DNA of 5,972 bases from Pseudomonadota bacterium (lineage in GTDB: Bacteria; Pseudomonadota; Gammaproteobacteria; Xanthomonadales; Rhodanobacteraceae): NCBI GenBank assembly GCA_021798675.1, contig JAJZGE010000139.1, positions 1 through 5,972 of the forward strand. The letters run 5' to 3'. The notes under the pieces were generated by a model that searched no databases, was not told the DNA's origin, and saw only the letters and a program-made list of their open reading frames with translations. How positions within the stretch are numbered: the first letter of the stretch is position 1; the number at the start of each line of letters is the position of its first letter. The position numbers and the translations under genes are program-made. Of the stretch, positions 154-5,972 are shown piece after piece.

Positions 154-525
154 ATGTCCATCCATCCACGCCTCGGCGCGCTGTGTGCAGGGCTGCTGCT
201 GGCGAGTGCGCTTGCCGCGCATCCGCTGCCGCAGCGCAGTGCACAGGGCCTGCTGATCAGCGCCAGCGGACAAACGCTCTACACCTATGACCGCGACGGC
301 AGCACTGGCAAGAGTGCGTGCAGCGGCCCGTGTGCCGCCGTGTGGCCGCCGTATGCCGCCACTGCCGGCGCCGTAGCGAATGCGGACTTCAGCGTGCTCA
401 CGCGCGCCGACGGTACGCCGCAGTGGGTCTACCGCGGTCATCCGCTGTACCTCTTCGCGGGCGATGCCAAGCCGGGCGACAAGGACGGCGATGGCGTCAA
501 CGGCGGTTGGCACGTGGTGCATTGA
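154..525 (+). CDS. Secreted Yx(FWY)xxD-repeat protein (COG4315/Lipoprotein_15 type)
   Basis: This 123-residue protein is predicted to be exported and to act in the periplasm or at the cell surface; the molecular role of the family is unknown. Residues 1-21 form a signal peptide, with likely cleavage in the ALA-AHP region. Cys11 does not sit in a proper lipobox, so it is probably not a lipoprotein, unlike many relatives. The mature part holds two copies of the family signature: YTYDRD at 43-48, followed by a Cys pair (C56, C60) and a VWPP turn, and YLFAGD at 99-104, followed by GDKDGDG and the terminal GGWHVV. The length is normal for a two-repeat member. The start at 154 is supported by AGGTGA at 144-149. 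The next gene begins 87 bp downstream, so co-transcription is possible but not shown. The DKDGDG stretch (109-114) resembles a calcium-binding DxDxDG loop, which is only a suggestion. Confidence 0.88.
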   Translation: MSIHPRLGALCAGLLLASALAAHPLPQRSAQGLLISASGQTLYTYDRDGSTGKSACSGPCAAVWPPYAATAGAVANADFSVLTRADGTPQWVYRGHPLYLFAGDAKPGDKDGDGVNGGWHVVH

Positions 526-612: not shown

Positions 613-1524
613 ATGCAAACGTATCGAAAGAACCGGGCAGCATGGCTGATCGGATTGGCCCTGAGTGGCTGCCTGCTGTCGATCACCGCCTCCGCGGCCG
701 ACACCGGCACGGGCGCCAGCATGGCCACCAGCGACAAGCTGCTGCTCACCGGCGGCGTGTCCGAGATCGAAGGCTCCGCCGGCGGCGGCCTCACCCCATG
801 GGCGGTGATCGGCGGCTACGGCACGCAGGACGAGATCGGCGCCAACGCCTTCTACACGCACGTGAATCTGCCCGACTATCACCTGGACGACGTCGGCGCG
901 CTGGTGGGTTTTTACAACCGGGTAGAGCTCTCATTCGCGCAGCAGCGATTCAACACCGAGAAGGTCGGCGGCGCGCTGGGCCTGGGCAACGGCTTCACCT
1001 TCACCCAGAACGTGATCGGCGTGAAGGTACGCCTGTTCGGTGATGCCGTGCTCGATCAGGACAGCTGGCTGCCGCAGGTGTCGGTAGGCCTGCAGCACAA
1101 GACCAACGATCAGACCGCGGTGCTGAAATACATCGGCGCAAAGTCCGACCAGGGCACCGATTACTACATCAGTGCGACCAAGCTGATTCTCAGCCAGAGC
1201 GTGCTGCTGAACGCCACGCTGCGCTACACCAAGGCCAACCAGATCGGCATCCTCGGCTTCGGTGGCGACAAGAACAATTCCTACCAGGCCGAGTTCGAAG
1301 GCTCGGCGGCGTACCTGCTCAGCCGCCACTGGGCGGTGGGCGCGGAGTACCGGCAGAAGCCCAACAACCTCGGCATCGCCAGGGAAGACAGCTGGTACGA
1401 CGCCTTTGTGGCGTGGGCGCCGACCAAACACGTGTCGGTGACGCTGGCCTATGCCGACCTCGGCAACATCGTCATCAAGCAGCGGCAGCGCGGCCTGTAC
1501 GCGTCGGTCCAAGTCGGTTTCTGA
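613..1524 (+). CDS. DUF3034 family protein, putative outer-membrane beta-barrel
   Basis: This 303-residue exported protein matches the DUF3034 family as I remember it: a KLLLTGGVSEIEG opening to the mature chain, then GGGLTPWAVIGGYGT, a central DSWLPQVSVG segment, LGFGGDKN, AVGAEYRQKPNNL, and a closing RQRGLYASVQVGF. Residues 1-28 form a signal peptide (basic MQTYRKNR, hydrophobic core, ASA cleavage site). The chain alternates short polar and apolar stretches and ends in Phe, as outer-membrane barrels recognised by the BAM machinery do. No biochemical function is established. An in-frame ATG at 565 exists, but 613 is preferred: AGGGAGG lies at 601-607 with 5-nt spacing, and only this start puts the signal peptide at the N terminus. 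It is the first gene of a tight group with the truncated hemoglobin (27 bp downstream), the cupredoxin lipoprotein and the Cache protein. It could be a channel or an outer-membrane anchor for those periplasmic partners (inference). Confidence 0.9.
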   Translation: MQTYRKNRAAWLIGLALSGCLLSITASAADTGTGASMATSDKLLLTGGVSEIEGSAGGGLTPWAVIGGYGTQDEIGANAFYTHVNLPDYHLDDVGALVGFYNRVELSFAQQRFNTEKVGGALGLGNGFTFTQNVIGVKVRLFGDAVLDQDSWLPQVSVGLQHKTNDQTAVLKYIGAKSDQGTDYYISATKLILSQSVLLNATLRYTKANQIGILGFGGDKNNSYQAEFEGSAAYLLSRHWAVGAEYRQKPNNLGIAREDSWYDAFVAWAPTKHVSVTLAYADLGNIVIKQRQRGLYASVQVGF

Positions 1525-1551
1525 TCGCCATTGCCCACCAGGAGCACTCTC

Positions 1552-2046
1552 ATGTTCAAGCATTCCCTCCACCTCGCCGCGCTCGCCACGGCGGTATTTT
1601 TTGCAAGCGGCGCGATGGCGCAGGAAGCCGCGACGATGTCGGCGCAGTCCGCTGCCATGAACGCCAGCGCGCCGCGCGATCCCGCACTCAAGCCCGTGTT
1701 CGATGAGTTTGGCGGCAAGCCCGGGCTGGTCGCGATCATGAACGACTTCATGGACAACCTGGTCGCCGACCCGCGCACCCATCCGTACTTTGCCAACGCC
1801 GACCGCGATCACATCAAGGCTGAACTGGTGGACCAGTTCTGCGTGATCCTGGACGGCCCGTGCACCTATACCGGCAAGGACATGGCGAAGGCGCATCAGA
1901 ACCTTGGCATCAACTATGCGGCCTTCAATGCGCTGGTCGAGGATCTGCAGAAGGCCATGGACAAGCACCACGTGCCGTTCCGTGCGCAGAACAAGCTGCT
2001 GGCCAAGCTGGCGCCGATGAACAAGGCGATCATCACCAGGAAGTAG
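1552..2046 (+). CDS. Exported group 1 truncated hemoglobin
   Basis: A small heme protein that should bind O2, NO or another diatomic ligand. Residues 1-23 are a signal peptide (hydrophobic LAALATAVFFASG, AMA-Q cleavage), so it acts in the periplasm. An Ala/Ser/Met-rich linker (24-45) precedes the globin core (about 48-162). Core motifs are FGGKPG (53-58), DFMDNLVADPRTHPYF (65-80), the DQFC...DGPCTYTG block (95-108) and KAHQNLG (113-119). His115 is the expected proximal heme ligand (F8). Phe66 aligns with B9, and the usual B10 Tyr position is Met67, so the distal pocket differs from cyanobacterial GlbN. Cys97 and Cys104 could form a disulfide after export. The length (164 aa) suits an exported member of the family. 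ATG 1552 is chosen over TTG 1531 because AGGAG lies at 1540-1544. The gene starts 27 bp after the DUF3034 gene. The physiological ligand and function are unknown. Confidence 0.92.
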   Translation: MFKHSLHLAALATAVFFASGAMAQEAATMSAQSAAMNASAPRDPALKPVFDEFGGKPGLVAIMNDFMDNLVADPRTHPYFANADRDHIKAELVDQFCVILDGPCTYTGKDMAKAHQNLGINYAAFNALVEDLQKAMDKHHVPFRAQNKLLAKLAPMNKAIITRK

Positions 2047-2054
2047 TTGCGCGC

Positions 2055-2085
2055 GCGGCAGGTCACTGCAACATCGACCTGCCGC
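2055..2085 (+). other. Intergenic hairpin 1 after the globin gene
   Basis: A perfect 10-bp inverted repeat has arms GCGGCAGGTC (2055-2064) and GACCTGCCGC (2076-2085) around an 11-nt loop, starting 8 nt after the globin stop. It is followed by ACATGTTTATCC rather than a run of T, so it is not a textbook intrinsic terminator. It may be a partial terminator, an attenuator or an mRNA-stabilising 3' end that sets the ratio of the globin to the downstream products. The arms are seen directly; the role is inferred. Confidence 0.5.
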
Positions 2086-2102
2086 ACATGTTTATCCATG
2101 CA

Positions 2103-2133
2103 GGCCACGCTGTTGTCAGACGGCGGCGTGGCC
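2103..2133 (+). other. Intergenic hairpin 2 upstream of the cupredoxin gene
   Basis: Arms GGCCACGC (2103-2110) and GCGTGGCC (2126-2133) are exactly complementary. In the + strand RNA the stem can continue inward through G-C and G-U pairs (2111-2115 with 2121-2125) to a 5-nt loop TCAGA, giving a stem of 13 pairs. Three of the inner pairs are G-U, so the hairpin is stronger as + strand RNA than as the opposite strand. It lies between hairpin 1 and the cupredoxin ribosome binding site. No function can be assigned. Confidence 0.45.
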
Positions 2134-2142
2134 AATGAACGG

Positions 2143-2160
2143 ATGACCACAGGGGGTCAT
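2143..2160 (+). promoter_or_regulatory. Small hairpin covering the cupredoxin ribosome binding site
   Basis: ATGACC (2143-2148) and GGTCAT (2155-2160) are exact inverted repeats around a 6-nt loop ACAGGG. The Shine-Dalgarno sequence AGGGGG (2151-2156) lies in the loop and the 3' arm, and the start codon ATG follows at 2161. Folding would partly hide the ribosome binding site, so initiation could depend on opening by upstream translation or by a regulator. The ATG at 2143 is in frame with the gene but has no ribosome binding site of its own, so 2161 is kept as the start. Confidence 0.4.
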
Positions 2161-3051
2161 ATGTCCATCCAGCGAATCTGCCTGATCGGCAGCCTTGCAC
2201 TGATCGGCGCCTGCAGCATGGCGCCGGCGCAGCACTCCATTGCGATGACATCCGGCGCATCGACCATACCCACCGCGGCCGCCGTGCCGATGACGGCAAC
2301 GGTCGCCGCCGTGCCGGTGAGTGAGGCCATGCCGGCAGCTGCAGCAGCGGTTATCCCGGCAGCGTCATCTTCGCCGCCCGAGCCGGTACCGGCTCCCGCG
2401 CCCGCGGCTGCTGCGCGCGTCGCGTTGAAAAAACCCGTAACCGAGGCGGTGGTCGCAGCGCCTGCGCGCGCGCAGATCAACGGGCACGTCAATCTGACGG
2501 CCGGCCGCGGTCAGCAGATCGAACCGGGCGATCAGACCGATACGCTGGTCTACTACGTGCCGGCCAGCGGCGGCGCCCGCGTCCGGCCGGGACAGTTCAA
2601 TGTCTACACGCACAACCGCGACTTCAGCCCCGAGGCGCTGGCCGTGCCGCTTGGCAGCACGGTCACTTTCGTGAACCTGGACGACGTGCGCCACAACGTG
2701 TTTTCGGTGACGCCGGGTTCGGCCTTCGATCTCGGCTACCAGGGCTCCGGCGAAAAGGCCTCGCACGTGTTCAGTCACGCCGGCATCGTGCTGGTCAGCT
2801 GCAACGTGCACCGCTCGATGGAGCTGGACGTGCTCGTGGTGCCGAGTCCGTACTCGGCCAAGGTGGCCGCCGATGGCAACTTCACGCTGCGCGGTCTGCC
2901 GCCCGGCCCGGGCACGCTGCACTTCTGGAATCCACGCGCGCAGCCGGCCAGCCAGGCGCTGACGCTGCCGCTCGGCGGCGCGGTAAAGCAGACCCTGCAG
3001 GTGACCAGGCCGCGGATGACGATGGCACCCAGCGGCAAGGGTGCGGTATGA
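2161..3051 (+). CDS. Cupredoxin-domain lipoprotein ('methylamine utilization protein' type)
   Basis: A 296-residue predicted lipoprotein carrying a type 1 copper-like domain, likely an envelope electron carrier or copper/redox sensor. Residues 1-17 form a lipoprotein signal with lipobox IGAC, so Cys18 is the lipidated residue. Residues 22-95 are a low-complexity Ala/Pro/Val linker. The cupredoxin domain spans about 100-228, with candidate copper ligands His178 (in VRHNVFS), Cys214, His217 and Met220. The CNVHRSM loop has C-x2-H-x2-M spacing, the short ligand loop known from amicyanin. Residues 230-290 (ADGNFTLRGLPPG, then HFWNPR) resemble a carboxypeptidase-regulatory-like beta-sandwich that often follows this cupredoxin type. 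ATG 2161 is supported by AGGGGG at 2151-2156. The stop overlaps the next start (ATGA, 3048-3051), which indicates translational coupling to the Cache protein. Nothing nearby encodes methylamine dehydrogenase, so the customary database name should not be read as its function. Confidence 0.88.
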   Translation: MSIQRICLIGSLALIGACSMAPAQHSIAMTSGASTIPTAAAVPMTATVAAVPVSEAMPAAAAAVIPAASSSPPEPVPAPAPAAAARVALKKPVTEAVVAAPARAQINGHVNLTAGRGQQIEPGDQTDTLVYYVPASGGARVRPGQFNVYTHNRDFSPEALAVPLGSTVTFVNLDDVRHNVFSVTPGSAFDLGYQGSGEKASHVFSHAGIVLVSCNVHRSMELDVLVVPSPYSAKVAADGNFTLRGLPPGPGTLHFWNPRAQPASQALTLPLGGAVKQTLQVTRPRMTMAPSGKGAV

Positions 3052-4136
3052 AACCCGCCAATCGCTTTCTGCTGTCCGGCGTTGTGCTGGTGGCGGTGCT
3101 CGGCGTCGCATCCGCGGCCGGGATGCTCTGGCAGACGCGCCGTGCTGCCGCGGCCAGCGCCCTCGGCCGTCTGCAGGTCGCGGGCACGGTCGAGAGCGAG
3201 CTGCAGGCCAATCGCCTGCGTGAGCTGCAGCTGCGCGCCGAGGTGCTGGCCAGCGATACCGCCTTCGTCGATTACGTGGCGCAGTCGCTGATCCCGAACC
3301 CGCAGCTCGGCGGCGCGGTCGACGCCGCCTCGATCAGCGATCTGCTGACCGAGCGGCGCCGAGGCTACGACATTGCGGCGGTACTTGATCCGCAGGGCAG
3401 GCTGATCGCCACCTCCGGCATCCTGCTGCGAGATCCGGTCGCGATCCTGCACGATCCGCTGGTGCTCAAGGCGATCCATTCGCAGACGCCGGTGCAGGGA
3501 ACGTGGGTGGACCACGGCGAGCTGCTGTGGGTGGCGGTCAATCCGCTGTTGCGTGGCGGCGCGCTGCAGGGCGTGCTGCTGACGGCTACGCATGTGGACA
3601 GCGCTTTTGCGATCGCGGTGGGCCGGATCGCGCGCACGCCGGTGACCTTCGCGATCCAGCCATCGCCGGGTGCGTCGCCAGCGCCGGCTTCCAGTGGCGT
3701 GGACGACTGGGTGGCGCAGGCAATCGGCGCCCAGCTGCCGGCCGTGCTGGCGCCAGCCCCGGCGCATGCGTTGACGCTGGCCAGCGGGCTGCACCGCAGC
3801 GCGGCGTGGGTCACGCCGCTGGATACCCAGGGTGGGCGCGCAGCGCTGGTGGCGCTGGCGGCGAATCCCGCCGGCAGGAGCATCCCGGACGGGGCGCAGC
3901 CGCTGCTGCTGGGCGTGGCCACGTTCACCGGGCTGGGCCTGCTGGTCGTCCTGCTGCTGTGGCGGCGCACCTGGTTGCCGTTGCAGGAGATGCTGGAGCT
4001 GATCCGGCGCGCGGCGCAGACCGGCGATCAGCATCTCACGGCGCGGGTCAGCGGCAGTCCGATCGTCCGCGACCTGCGCGACAGCATCAACCCGCTGCTG
4101 CTGCGCCCGCTGTCGAAGCAGCAGCGGGAGAGCTGA
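3048..4136 (+). CDS. Membrane sensor-like protein, Cache-like periplasmic domain plus HAMP-like tail, no output domain
   Basis: A 362-residue inner-membrane protein. TM1 is at about residues 8-28 and TM2 at about 285-305 (a Leu/Val-rich stretch ending in WRR). Between them lies a periplasmic domain of about 255 residues. A helical start (38-80) leads to PAS/Cache-like strands, notably YDIAAVLDPQGRLIATSG (107-124) and LLWVAVNPLL followed by LQGVLLTATHVD (159-184), which is the layout of extracellular Cache sensors. The cytoplasmic tail (306-362) has PLQEMLELIRRA and DLRDSINPLL, which look like the two helices of a HAMP module. The protein then ends, without a kinase, GGDEF, EAL or methyl-accepting domain. 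The start overlaps the cupredoxin stop by ATGA, with AAGGG at 3037-3041, so the pair is probably co-translated. The Cache and HAMP calls rest on pattern only. It may signal through a partner protein, or be a shortened descendant of a larger receptor. Confidence 0.75.
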   Translation: MKPANRFLLSGVVLVAVLGVASAAGMLWQTRRAAAASALGRLQVAGTVESELQANRLRELQLRAEVLASDTAFVDYVAQSLIPNPQLGGAVDAASISDLLTERRRGYDIAAVLDPQGRLIATSGILLRDPVAILHDPLVLKAIHSQTPVQGTWVDHGELLWVAVNPLLRGGALQGVLLTATHVDSAFAIAVGRIARTPVTFAIQPSPGASPAPASSGVDDWVAQAIGAQLPAVLAPAPAHALTLASGLHRSAAWVTPLDTQGGRAALVALAANPAGRSIPDGAQPLLLGVATFTGLGLLVVLLLWRRTWLPLQEMLELIRRAAQTGDQHLTARVSGSPIVRDLRDSINPLLLRPLSKQQRES

Positions 4137-4163
4137 GCAGACTGCCCGGCCGCGCATCGGCGC

Positions 4164-4195
4164 CAGGCGACGCGGCTATCACGCCGTGTCGCCTG
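4164..4195. terminator. Hairpin between convergent genes, possible bidirectional terminator
   Basis: AGGCGACGCGGC (4165-4176) pairs with GCCGTGTCGCCT (4183-4194) around a 6-nt loop. One G-U pair occurs in the + strand RNA, and an extra C-G pair (4164/4195) makes 13 pairs. It starts 27 nt past the stop of the Cache protein gene, and its loop contains the fdhD stop codon (TCA on +, 4179-4181). The stem is strong and correctly placed to stop transcription from the left, but no T tract follows on either strand, so it may be only a 3'-end-protecting hairpin. Confidence 0.45.
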
Positions 4196-5036
4196 CGTTC
4201 CCGGATAGCAGTCGTGCGGGATGGGTGTAGACGTTGTGGCTGCCCGGGCGCGCAAAGCCGACCAGGGTCATGCCGGCGCTGCGGGCCAGTTCGATCGCCA
4301 GCGCGGTCGGTGCGGAAATCGCGGCCAGCAGGGTGATGCCGGCGCTGGCCGCCTTGGTCACCATCTCGTAGCTGGCGCGGCTGGTGACCAGCGCGAAGCC
4401 GCTGGCCGGCGCGATGCCGGCGTGATGCAGGGCGCCGATCAGCTTGTCCAGCGCGTTGTGCCGACCGACGTCTTCGCGCACCAGCACGATGCGGCCGTCG
4501 GCATCCGCCCACGCTGCCGCATGCACTGCGCCAGTGGCCAGATTCATTGGTTGCTGCGGCTGCAGATCGGCCAGCGCGCGCTCCAGCACCTGATGCCGGA
4601 ATCCGCCGCCGCCGTGCACTGCCGGCGGCTGGCGCACAGCGTTTTCCAGCTGGCGGGTGCCGCACAGACCGCAGCCGCTGCGTCCCGGCAGCAGGCGCTG
4701 GCCGTCCCGATCGAGGTGTGCGCCGTGTGCCTGCGCCGCCACCGTCATCGCCAGCTCGATCCCTTCCAGCCGCGGCTGGACGCGGATCGCCTGCAGCTGC
4801 GTCGCGTCGTCGATCAGCCCCTCGCTGAGCGAGAAGCCCAGCGCGAAATCCTCCAGGTCGTGCGGCGTAGCCATCATCACCGCGAACGAGCTGCCGTTGT
4901 AGAGCATCGCAACGGGCATCTCCTCGGCCACGCAGTCGTCGTGCGGCGTGGCCGCATCGCCGCGCCAGCGCTCGATGCGGCGCGTGACATGGCCGCGGCT
5001 GACGGTGGGCGGGGCAGGCAAGGGAGGCTGGCTCAT
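4179..5036 (-). CDS. fdhD: Formate dehydrogenase accessory sulfurtransferase FdhD
   Basis: FdhD is a cytoplasmic protein that passes sulfur, obtained from a cysteine desulfurase, to the molybdenum cofactor of formate dehydrogenases. Without this step those enzymes are inactive. The 285-residue product (E. coli FdhD is of similar size) shows the family marks: EDFALGFSLSEGLI (62-75), the GCGLCG motif with Cys122 and Cys125 that carries the sulfur, TGAVHAA (168-174), REDVGRHNALDK (188-199), SRASYEMVTKAA (219-230) and ISAPTALAIELA (240-251). The ATG at 5036 gives the usual N terminus. In-frame ATGs further out (5072 and 5132) would add residues not expected in the family. No Shine-Dalgarno sequence is evident before 5036. 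It converges on the Cache protein gene and diverges from moeA, another molybdenum cofactor gene. No formate dehydrogenase subunit is visible within the window. Confidence 0.95.
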   Translation of the reverse strand: MSQPPLPAPPTVSRGHVTRRIERWRGDAATPHDDCVAEEMPVAMLYNGSSFAVMMATPHDLEDFALGFSLSEGLIDDATQLQAIRVQPRLEGIELAMTVAAQAHGAHLDRDGQRLLPGRSGCGLCGTRQLENAVRQPPAVHGGGGFRHQVLERALADLQPQQPMNLATGAVHAAAWADADGRIVLVREDVGRHNALDKLIGALHHAGIAPASGFALVTSRASYEMVTKAASAGITLLAAISAPTALAIELARSAGMTLVGFARPGSHNVYTHPARLLSGNAGDTA

Positions 5037-5042
5037 CCATGC

Positions 5043-5048
5043 ATCATA
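5043..5048 (-). promoter_or_regulatory. Possible -10 element of a leaderless fdhD transcript
   Basis: On the minus strand TATGAT (from 5048 to 5043) matches the TATAAT consensus at five of six positions. It ends 6 nt before the fdhD start codon, so transcription would begin at about the A of the ATG. The -35 position at 16-18 bp spacing (around 5065-5072) reads only TGCCCG-like sequence, which is a poor match. Together with the missing Shine-Dalgarno sequence this fits a leaderless mRNA, but the evidence is modest. Confidence 0.3.
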
Positions 5049-5116
5049 GCGAGCCCGCGCGGCGGCGGGCATCGGATGACCGCGTCCGGATGGACGATCG
5101 TCGCGGTTGTCAAAGC

Positions 5117-5134
5117 GCAGGCAGCGCTGCATGC
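5117..5134. promoter_or_regulatory. Imperfect 18-bp palindrome in the fdhD-moeA divergent region
   Basis: The core GCAGCGCTGC (5121-5130) is a perfect 10-bp palindrome. After one mismatched pair the symmetry continues for three more pairs on each side (5117-5119 with 5132-5134). It lies near the middle of the 152-bp region shared by two divergent molybdenum-cofactor-related genes, a usual place for an operator. No regulator is encoded in the window and I do not recognise the site. In GC-rich DNA such a palindrome can arise by chance. Confidence 0.3.
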
Positions 5135-5188
5135 TTTCCCGGTTGACGCCGTGCGCGTCGTGGCCGCACGGCGCAGGCTTTCATTTTC

Positions 5189-5972
5189 ATGAGCGAGCTC
5201 ATTCGACTTGCCGAAGCGACCGCGCTGATTCGCGGGCAGCTGCCTGCGCTGGGCGGCGAGAGCGTGCCGCTGCAGGCAGCCCTCGGCCGCCTGCTGGCCA
5301 ACGATATCCGCAGTCCGATCGCGCTGCCCTCGTTCGACCACGCTGCGATGGACGGCTATGCGCTGCGTGCTGATCCGCAGCCGCTGCCCGCCGGCTCGGA
5401 ACATCATGTGCGCGGCTCGCGCGCGGCCGGCGATGCCGTCACCGAGGCGGCGGGCGCAGGCGACGCCTGCGAGATCATGACCGGTGCGGCGCTGCCCGCC
5501 GGGCTCGACGCAGTGGTGGCGGTGGAACGCACGCAGCTGCTGCAGACGCACGCCGACGGCACGCCCGCGCGTATCCGGCTGCTGGACCCCCTGCGTGCTG
5601 GCGACAACGTGCGCCGCCTCGGCAGCGATGTTGCCGAAGCCGCGCCGGTGCTGGCCGCCGGCACGCGCATCGGGCCGGCCCAGCTGATGCTGCTGGCGGC
5701 GCTCGGCGTGGCGCAGGTACAGGTGGTGCGCCGCGCGCGGGTGGCGATCATCTGCACCGGCAAGGAGCTGCAGGCCGATCCCACGCAGCCGCTGGAAGCG
5801 GGGCGCATCCACAATTCCAACGGTCCCTACCTGGTGGCTGCGCTGACGGCCGCCGGTGCGCAGGTGCTGTCGTGCGACAGCGTGGACGACACCGTCACGA
5901 CTTTCACAAGCGCCCTGCAACGCGCGCTCGACGCCGGTGCCGACCTGGTAGTGAGTACCGGCGCGGTGTCGA
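5189..5972 (+). CDS. moeA: Molybdopterin molybdenumtransferase MoeA (5' part, runs off the window)
   Basis: MoeA is the cytoplasmic enzyme that inserts molybdate into adenylated molybdopterin, the step that produces active molybdenum cofactor. The first 261 codons are present and open to the right edge; the family is usually about 400 residues, so roughly a third is missing. Family marks are PSFDHAAMDGYAL (47-59), GDACEIMTGAALPAG (91-105), GDNVRRLGSDV (138-148), CTGKELQ (189-195, where many relatives have TGDE), GRIHNSNGPYL (205-215) and STGAVS (256-261) at the edge. The start ATG 5189 gives the typical N terminus (SELIRLAEATALI). Only a weak AGG at 5175-5177 precedes it, 11 nt away. It is divergent from fdhD, which suits a shared need when molybdoenzymes such as formate dehydrogenase are made. 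Confidence 0.94.
   Translation, partial: MSELIRLAEATALIRGQLPALGGESVPLQAALGRLLANDIRSPIALPSFDHAAMDGYALRADPQPLPAGSEHHVRGSRAAGDAVTEAAGAGDACEIMTGAALPAGLDAVVAVERTQLLQTHADGTPARIRLLDPLRAGDNVRRLGSDVAEAAPVLAAGTRIGPAQLMLLAALGVAQVQVVRRARVAIICTGKELQADPTQPLEAGRIHNSNGPYLVAALTAAGAQVLSCDSVDDTVTTFTSALQRALDAGADLVVSTGAVS

Follow-up and report, generated by a model that had tools for sequence, protein, structure and literature searches.

Control of cyclic di-GMP (c-di-GMP) from the cell envelope is known from systems of the YfiBNR and NspS-MbaA types, in which a periplasmic protein, joined in the Yfi system by an outer-membrane partner, governs an inner-membrane receptor with GGDEF or GGDEF-EAL domains. Heme proteins are linked to c-di-GMP enzymes in the globin-coupled sensors and the H-NOX/GGDEF-EAL systems, which are cytosolic and often fused. 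The system analyzed here bears a likeness to both groups. It is a module of four genes, encoding a DUF3034 protein, an exported globin, a cupredoxin lipoprotein, and a Cache-type membrane receptor, found in a 5,972-nucleotide stretch of a Rhodanobacteraceae genome (GenBank assembly GCA_021798675.1, contig JAJZGE010000139.1) whose closest named relatives are Rhodanobacter; this whole stretch is referred to below as the window. In contrast to YfiBNR and NspS-MbaA, the periplasmic parts of the module are a putative heme globin and a putative copper protein, and the receptor in the window carries no enzyme. Unlike the globin-coupled and H-NOX systems, its globin is exported and stands alone, lacks a polar distal pocket, and has two invariant cysteines. 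As far as the available excerpts go, the nearest printed precedent for periplasmic globins lies in papers on cable bacteria, where truncated hemoglobins are proposed to sit in the periplasm as O2 reductases; one kind of globin there is fused to a multiheme cytochrome, and the same excerpts mention neither DUF3034 nor cupredoxin (PMC11976967). Our searches of an open-access library found no publication on the module and no mention of PF11231, the DUF3034 family; in the portions available, DUF3034 is listed in a table against a protein from an actinobacterium (PMC4255298), and globins and GGDEF genes are treated separately (PMC3770913).

The association of DUF3034 with the globin extends over the whole phylum. 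Of 398 genomes sampled evenly from it, 39 contain PF11231, and in all 38 DUF3034 loci fetched with their surroundings, besides the Rhodanobacter reference, the globin is the next gene after DUF3034 on the same strand. Globins of the module class, defined as those scoring 143 bits or more (a line set at the observed gap, with the next scores dropping to 93 bits), occur in all 39 DUF3034 genomes, against 2 of the 359 others (Fisher p = 5e-52); in these two exceptional genomes, DUF3034 was not found within the 16 kb fetched. The DUF3034-globin partnership is nearly obligate. A sequence-only reading of the window had stated that DUF3034, truncated globin, and cupredoxin genes recur together, often near GGDEF/EAL genes, and gene neighborhoods well beyond close relatives bear this out: 32 of the 38 loci contain the cupredoxin, 30 a full receptor of 741-798 amino acids, the length expected of GGDEF-EAL forms, and 29 both. 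The commonest order is cupredoxin-receptor-DUF3034-globin (20/38 loci), followed by a divergent arrangement (6/38) and by DUF3034-globin with neither cupredoxin nor receptor (5/38). Two loci (L043 and L044) have two receptors flanking the cupredoxin, both full and with the same sensor head, and then DUF3034-globin; two others have DUF3034-globin-cupredoxin without a receptor; and three further orders are seen once each, among them that of Xylophilus sp. Leaf220 (L055), which combines the window's order with a full receptor. Among the remaining clusters of neighboring open frames, the three largest are opposite-strand overlaps of the module genes themselves, and the next largest is found in 9/47 loci, at varying places (the small clusters are unannotated).

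The cupredoxin and the receptor form a second unit. Profile matches to the cupredoxin occur in 96/398 genomes, many of them weak, and since in each genome the cupredoxin and globin searches scored no more than the top 7 or 9 candidates, weak matches may be missed. Of the 26 copies scoring above 110 bits outside DUF3034 loci, 20 were fetched, and the receptor head lies directly 3' of the cupredoxin in 15 of these. Within the family of the window (59 genomes with 21 strong matches), the head adjoins the cupredoxin in 19 of 19 loci examined, a set that partly overlaps the loci counted above. Because the cupredoxin-receptor combination occurs without DUF3034 and globin, the module consists of two separable pairs; in four genomes (G218, G230, G266, and G394), both pairs are present but apart. 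This divides an earlier suggestion that the Cache protein reads the state of either the globin or the cupredoxin: the cupredoxin stands as the regular genomic partner of the receptor, and the globin does not, given the occurrence of the cupredoxin-receptor pair without it. After three receptor-less cupredoxin genes, a protein of 403-411 amino acids is encoded (L088:7125-8333, L091:7377-8603, L099:5173-6405), and the two of these that were scanned (from L088 and L099) had no Pfam match.

In the window, the four genes follow one another on the plus strand with gaps of 27 bp and 114 bp and then a 4-bp overlap between the cupredoxin and receptor genes, an arrangement described in the sequence-only reading and confirmed by gene coordinates and profile matches. 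The same order is found in all eight loci of relatives fetched via the cupredoxin, and the overlap is kept in 9/9 loci of the window's clade. The DUF3034 gene (positions 613-1524) matches the full length of PF11231 (369.5 bits, cut-off 25, profile 1-255/255). Its product has a signal peptide, a conserved glycine-rich N-terminal segment, and a predicted 12-stranded beta-barrel that would be located in the outer membrane, a fold of the same kind as in the FapF, KdgM, NanC, and COG4313 channels, with which it shares 6-14% identity.

The globin gene (1552-2046; PF01152, 52.3 bits, cut-off 21) has a signal-peptide-like start without a lipobox. Its product belongs with the group 1 truncated hemoglobins by its match to the Bac_globin profile and by its proximal histidine and CD1 phenylalanine, which are invariant in 47/47 sequences, and the best sequence matches of its profile in the PDB are chains of HbN (1idr). 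His115 (1894-1896), conserved in 47/47 and aligned with HbN, would be the proximal heme ligand at F8. The globin would carry heme. Cys97 (1840-1842) and Cys104 (1861-1863) are likewise invariant in 47/47 and could possibly form a disulfide. The distal side departs from HbN: B10 is leucine, methionine, valine, or isoleucine in 46/47 (methionine in the window), and E11 is leucine or phenylalanine in 47/47, so that, with the distal TyrB10 and GlnE11 absent, an O2-stabilizing or NO (nitric oxide)-dioxygenase globin of the HbN type was rejected. Export and the cysteine pair set it further apart from HbN. A lipobox-like motif is present in the globin at 23/38 other loci and at 0/9 in the window's clade, and in the cupredoxin at 1/32 other loci as against 9/9 in the clade; start codons were picked by a simple signal-peptide rule and the motif is crude, so these counts include doubtful matches. 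As side observations, one genome (G083, locus L103) has a second DUF3034-globin copy that is apparently broken, with DUF3034 in pieces and one TAG in the globin, and tandem trios of weaker truncated-globin matches occur in genomes of about 2 Mb (e.g., G223:C275 and G105:C14).

The cupredoxin gene (2161-3051) encodes a protein built of a lipobox (the lipobox-like motif LIGAC), a proline/alanine linker, a type 1 copper domain (PF00127, 21.8 bits, cut-off 21.2), and a C-terminal domain resembling CarboxypepD_reg (PF13620, 26.7 bits, under the cut-off of 32.3). The four type 1 ligands, a histidine (2692-2694) and the cysteine, histidine, and methionine of an amicyanin-like CxxHxxM loop (2800-2820), are invariant in 40/40 sequences; one of 41 rows was dropped from this alignment (L076, late start), as was L080 (partial) from another. 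The protein presumably carries copper, and the residue patterns agree with the claim, made when the window was first read, that the module combines a heme center and a type 1 copper-like center. The ligands and the loop relate it to the amicyanin/plastocyanin family, but it falls far under the cut-offs for amicyanin and pseudoazurin, has the extra C-terminal domain, and is a lipoprotein in the window's clade. Amicyanin identity was specifically rejected (TIGR02657, 13.3 bits, cut-off 110.2), and methylamine dehydrogenase genes are absent from among the window's genes, although no search was dedicated to them.

The receptor gene (3048-4136) encodes a transmembrane helix, a dCache-type periplasmic domain, a second transmembrane helix, and a HAMP-like end. 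The protein itself falls short of the Pfam Cache thresholds (CHASE4, 15.6 bits, cut-off 26.2), yet five homologues that were scanned pass the dCache_3 threshold, and its structure model (predicted local distance difference test score, pLDDT, 89.8) shows a periplasmic Cache fold between the two helices, with Foldseek matches that include Cache-type ligand-binding domains (E-values 1e-7 to 1e-6, template-modeling scores about 0.3-0.5). The description of the product as sensor-like had overlooked that the output domain is missing: the profile scan found no GGDEF, EAL, or kinase domain, and the receptor and its kin stop after the second helix and the HAMP-like stretch (3966-4103). The latter has no Pfam HAMP match in the window's protein and is conserved over 103 proteins, with a mean conservation of 0.67 against 0.50 for the membrane-proximal and 0.74 for the distal part of the Cache domain. 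These 103 proteins, the window's own included, came from a homology search that admits 0.55-1.75 times the query length, so that full-length forms are excluded and some rows may be contig fragments; 97 of them are 348-371 amino acids long. Ratios of nonsynonymous to synonymous substitution rates (dN/dS) of 0.15-0.33 in seven pairs reveal purifying selection on the tail-less receptor. Most likely, the Rhodanobacteraceae receptor signals through the HAMP-like segment that it has kept to a partner in trans.

In other lineages the same sensor head is joined to several different outputs. Five full receptors that were scanned have the architecture dCache_3-HAMP-GGDEF-EAL, and all 32 full receptors have the EAL (EVL in one) and DDF/DDY motifs, with an exact GGDEF in 9. 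With its EAL conserved and its GGDEF frequently degenerate, this form probably acts mainly as a phosphodiesterase. The head is linked to a nucleotide cyclase in L092 and to a Ser/Thr kinase in L097, L136, L137, and L138; a single histidine-kinase form (P0165) was seen among 120 of 292 rows. On a tree of 40 rows, the nine tail-less receptors and the four of kinase type are separated, by a branch with 100/100 support, from 27 of the GGDEF-EAL and cyclase types, one of the nine, that of L005, being counted by gene order and length as it reaches the contig end and its tail-less end is not visible. The closest output-bearing relatives of the window's receptor on this tree are the Ser/Thr kinase forms. 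The kinase form L136, whose locus has the commonest gene order, groups among the tail-less receptors; L134 is tail-less in that same order; and L135 is tail-less, with DUF3034 and globin not in its fetched stretch. The trees imply two changes for the tail-less state, and a single clade is not rejected (approximately unbiased test, p-AU 0.245).

We give roughly even odds to the reading that the module is a heme-copper relay of the envelope, for redox or for a gas, with the dCache receptor reading its copper protein. The first pair would combine the DUF3034 barrel in the outer membrane with the exported globin, whose heme would meet its ligand or oxidant there. Electrons would then pass from the globin to the cupredoxin, and the receptor of the second pair, through contact of the cupredoxin with its Cache domain, would read the redox state of the copper, or the docking of the copper protein, across the inner membrane. 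At most loci the output would be the GGDEF-EAL part, and in other lineages the Ser/Thr kinase or nucleotide cyclase, with enzyme activities presumed from the domains; in Rhodanobacteraceae, where the enzyme is gone, it would proceed in trans via the HAMP-like segment. On a more general form of this idea, which we put forward tentatively, the module may be a heme-copper sensor of the envelope whose cytoplasmic end (c-di-GMP turnover, kinase, cyclase, or HAMP in trans) is exchangeable behind a dCache head that reads the cupredoxin; the redox chain of channel, globin, and cupredoxin would keep the cytoplasm informed of the cell-surface state.

Genomic context bears on the ligand and on the output. 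We compared the 39 DUF3034 genomes with 41 without it, a control set that is not fully random, as it joins 13 no-match genomes of 3.4 Mb or more with 28 taken at regular steps. NirS was found in 5/39 against 10/41 (matches above 200 bits, our own line), NirK over its cut-off in 3/39 against 4/41, and NosZ in 5/39 against 10/41. Since none of these is enriched in DUF3034 genomes, NO from the cell's own denitrification was rejected as the general ligand; external NO remains compatible with the data. Because the distal hydrogen-bonding residues are absent from the globin, sensing of O2 through a stable oxy complex is also unlikely. Of the ligands advanced in the sequence-only reading, which is partly supported as an interpretation, O2 in this form and self-generated NO thus fare poorly. 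EAL domains number a median of 23 per genome in the DUF3034 set and 11 in the other (p = 4e-5), with counts running to at most 30 per genome and a statistic that ignores phylogeny. Two DUF3034 genomes (G024 and G083) have a single EAL match each and a locus without the receptor, a pattern that fits coupling to c-di-GMP.

Several observations weigh against the relay. The missing denitrification enrichment weakens its NO-only form, and the ceiling and the disregard of phylogeny temper the EAL difference. Five of the 20 cupredoxin-only loci have no receptor, and the loci of G024 and G083, together with the 5/38 bare loci, imply that DUF3034-globin can be kept without a c-di-GMP output. The Pfam column, for 120 of 292 rows, contains no globin-receptor or cupredoxin-receptor fusion. 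For the tail-less receptor, no partner in trans was identified, and a search of G001-G005 with the kinase domain of L136 found no close detached kinase, the best matches having about 30% identity. Many Cache domains bind small ligands, which would not call for a protein partner.

The main rival to the signaling relay, which we hold to be unlikely, is a periplasmic electron sink, in which the cupredoxin would supply the globin with electrons for the reduction of O2, NO, or peroxide and detoxification would come first, the receptor monitoring the process or, when tail-less, acting as an anchor. Such a role would account for the eight of 38 loci that keep DUF3034-globin without a receptor and for the tail-less receptors, which carry no enzyme; the apolar distal pocket also fits a redox-active heme rather than an O2-storing one, and in the available excerpts the periplasmic truncated hemoglobins of cable bacteria are proposed to reduce O2 (PMC12093952, PMC11976967). 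It is harder to reconcile with the adjacency of both cupredoxin and full receptor in most loci, and a third catalytic partner is not evident, no further family being found in more than 9/47 loci, antisense frames aside. An outer-membrane electron conduit, with barrel, monoheme protein, and cupredoxin carrying electrons across the envelope in the manner of the Cyc2-rusticyanin route of iron oxidizers, draws on the barrel prediction and on the co-occurrence of the heme and copper proteins in 32/38 loci; we consider it improbable, as a barrel of 12 strands is narrow, the globin is a protein of its own, and the fourth linked gene encodes a signaling protein. Copper handling or copper sensing, with the cupredoxin reporting its copper loading, has a comparably small chance: it leaves the globin unexplained, and the copper of type 1 sites is usually held firmly and functions through redox changes. 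That the Rhodanobacteraceae receptor is merely a decaying remnant, as its lack of GGDEF, EAL, and kinase domains might suggest, is already disfavored and very improbable in view of its uniform length, its low dN/dS, its conserved HAMP-like end, and the overlap with the cupredoxin gene kept throughout the clade.

Upstream of the module in the window (154-525, plus strand) lies a gene for a secreted Lipoprotein_15 repeat protein (PF03640, 94.3 bits) with a signal-peptide-like start and a CSGPC motif. In 6/8 Rhodanobacter-type loci (L001, L002, and L004-L007), a PF03640 gene precedes DUF3034 in the same orientation; it was undetected in L003 and L008 and has no matches at the other 38 loci. Its product is possibly a fifth member of the module in the window's clade. 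On the 3' side (4179-5972) are FdhD on the minus strand and then the start of MoeA on the plus strand; among the fetched relatives, FdhD has a single match, in L067, about 5 kb away from the module. Long open frames on the minus strand over the module (931-1971 and 2775-4157) are typical of coding sequence rich in G+C. Scans of the window gave no promoter-like sites, transfer RNA genes, or Rfam matches, and three terminator-like sites against 2.0 expected.

With these findings, a fold is predicted for DUF3034, and the family can be placed in the context of a pathway, next to a partner that is nearly obligate. The tail-less form raises a testable question, namely, what the partner of a receptor without an enzyme is. 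If the relay proposed here is true, bacteria would read the redox state of heme and copper in their envelope into c-di-GMP, kinases, or cyclases via one interchangeable sensor head.

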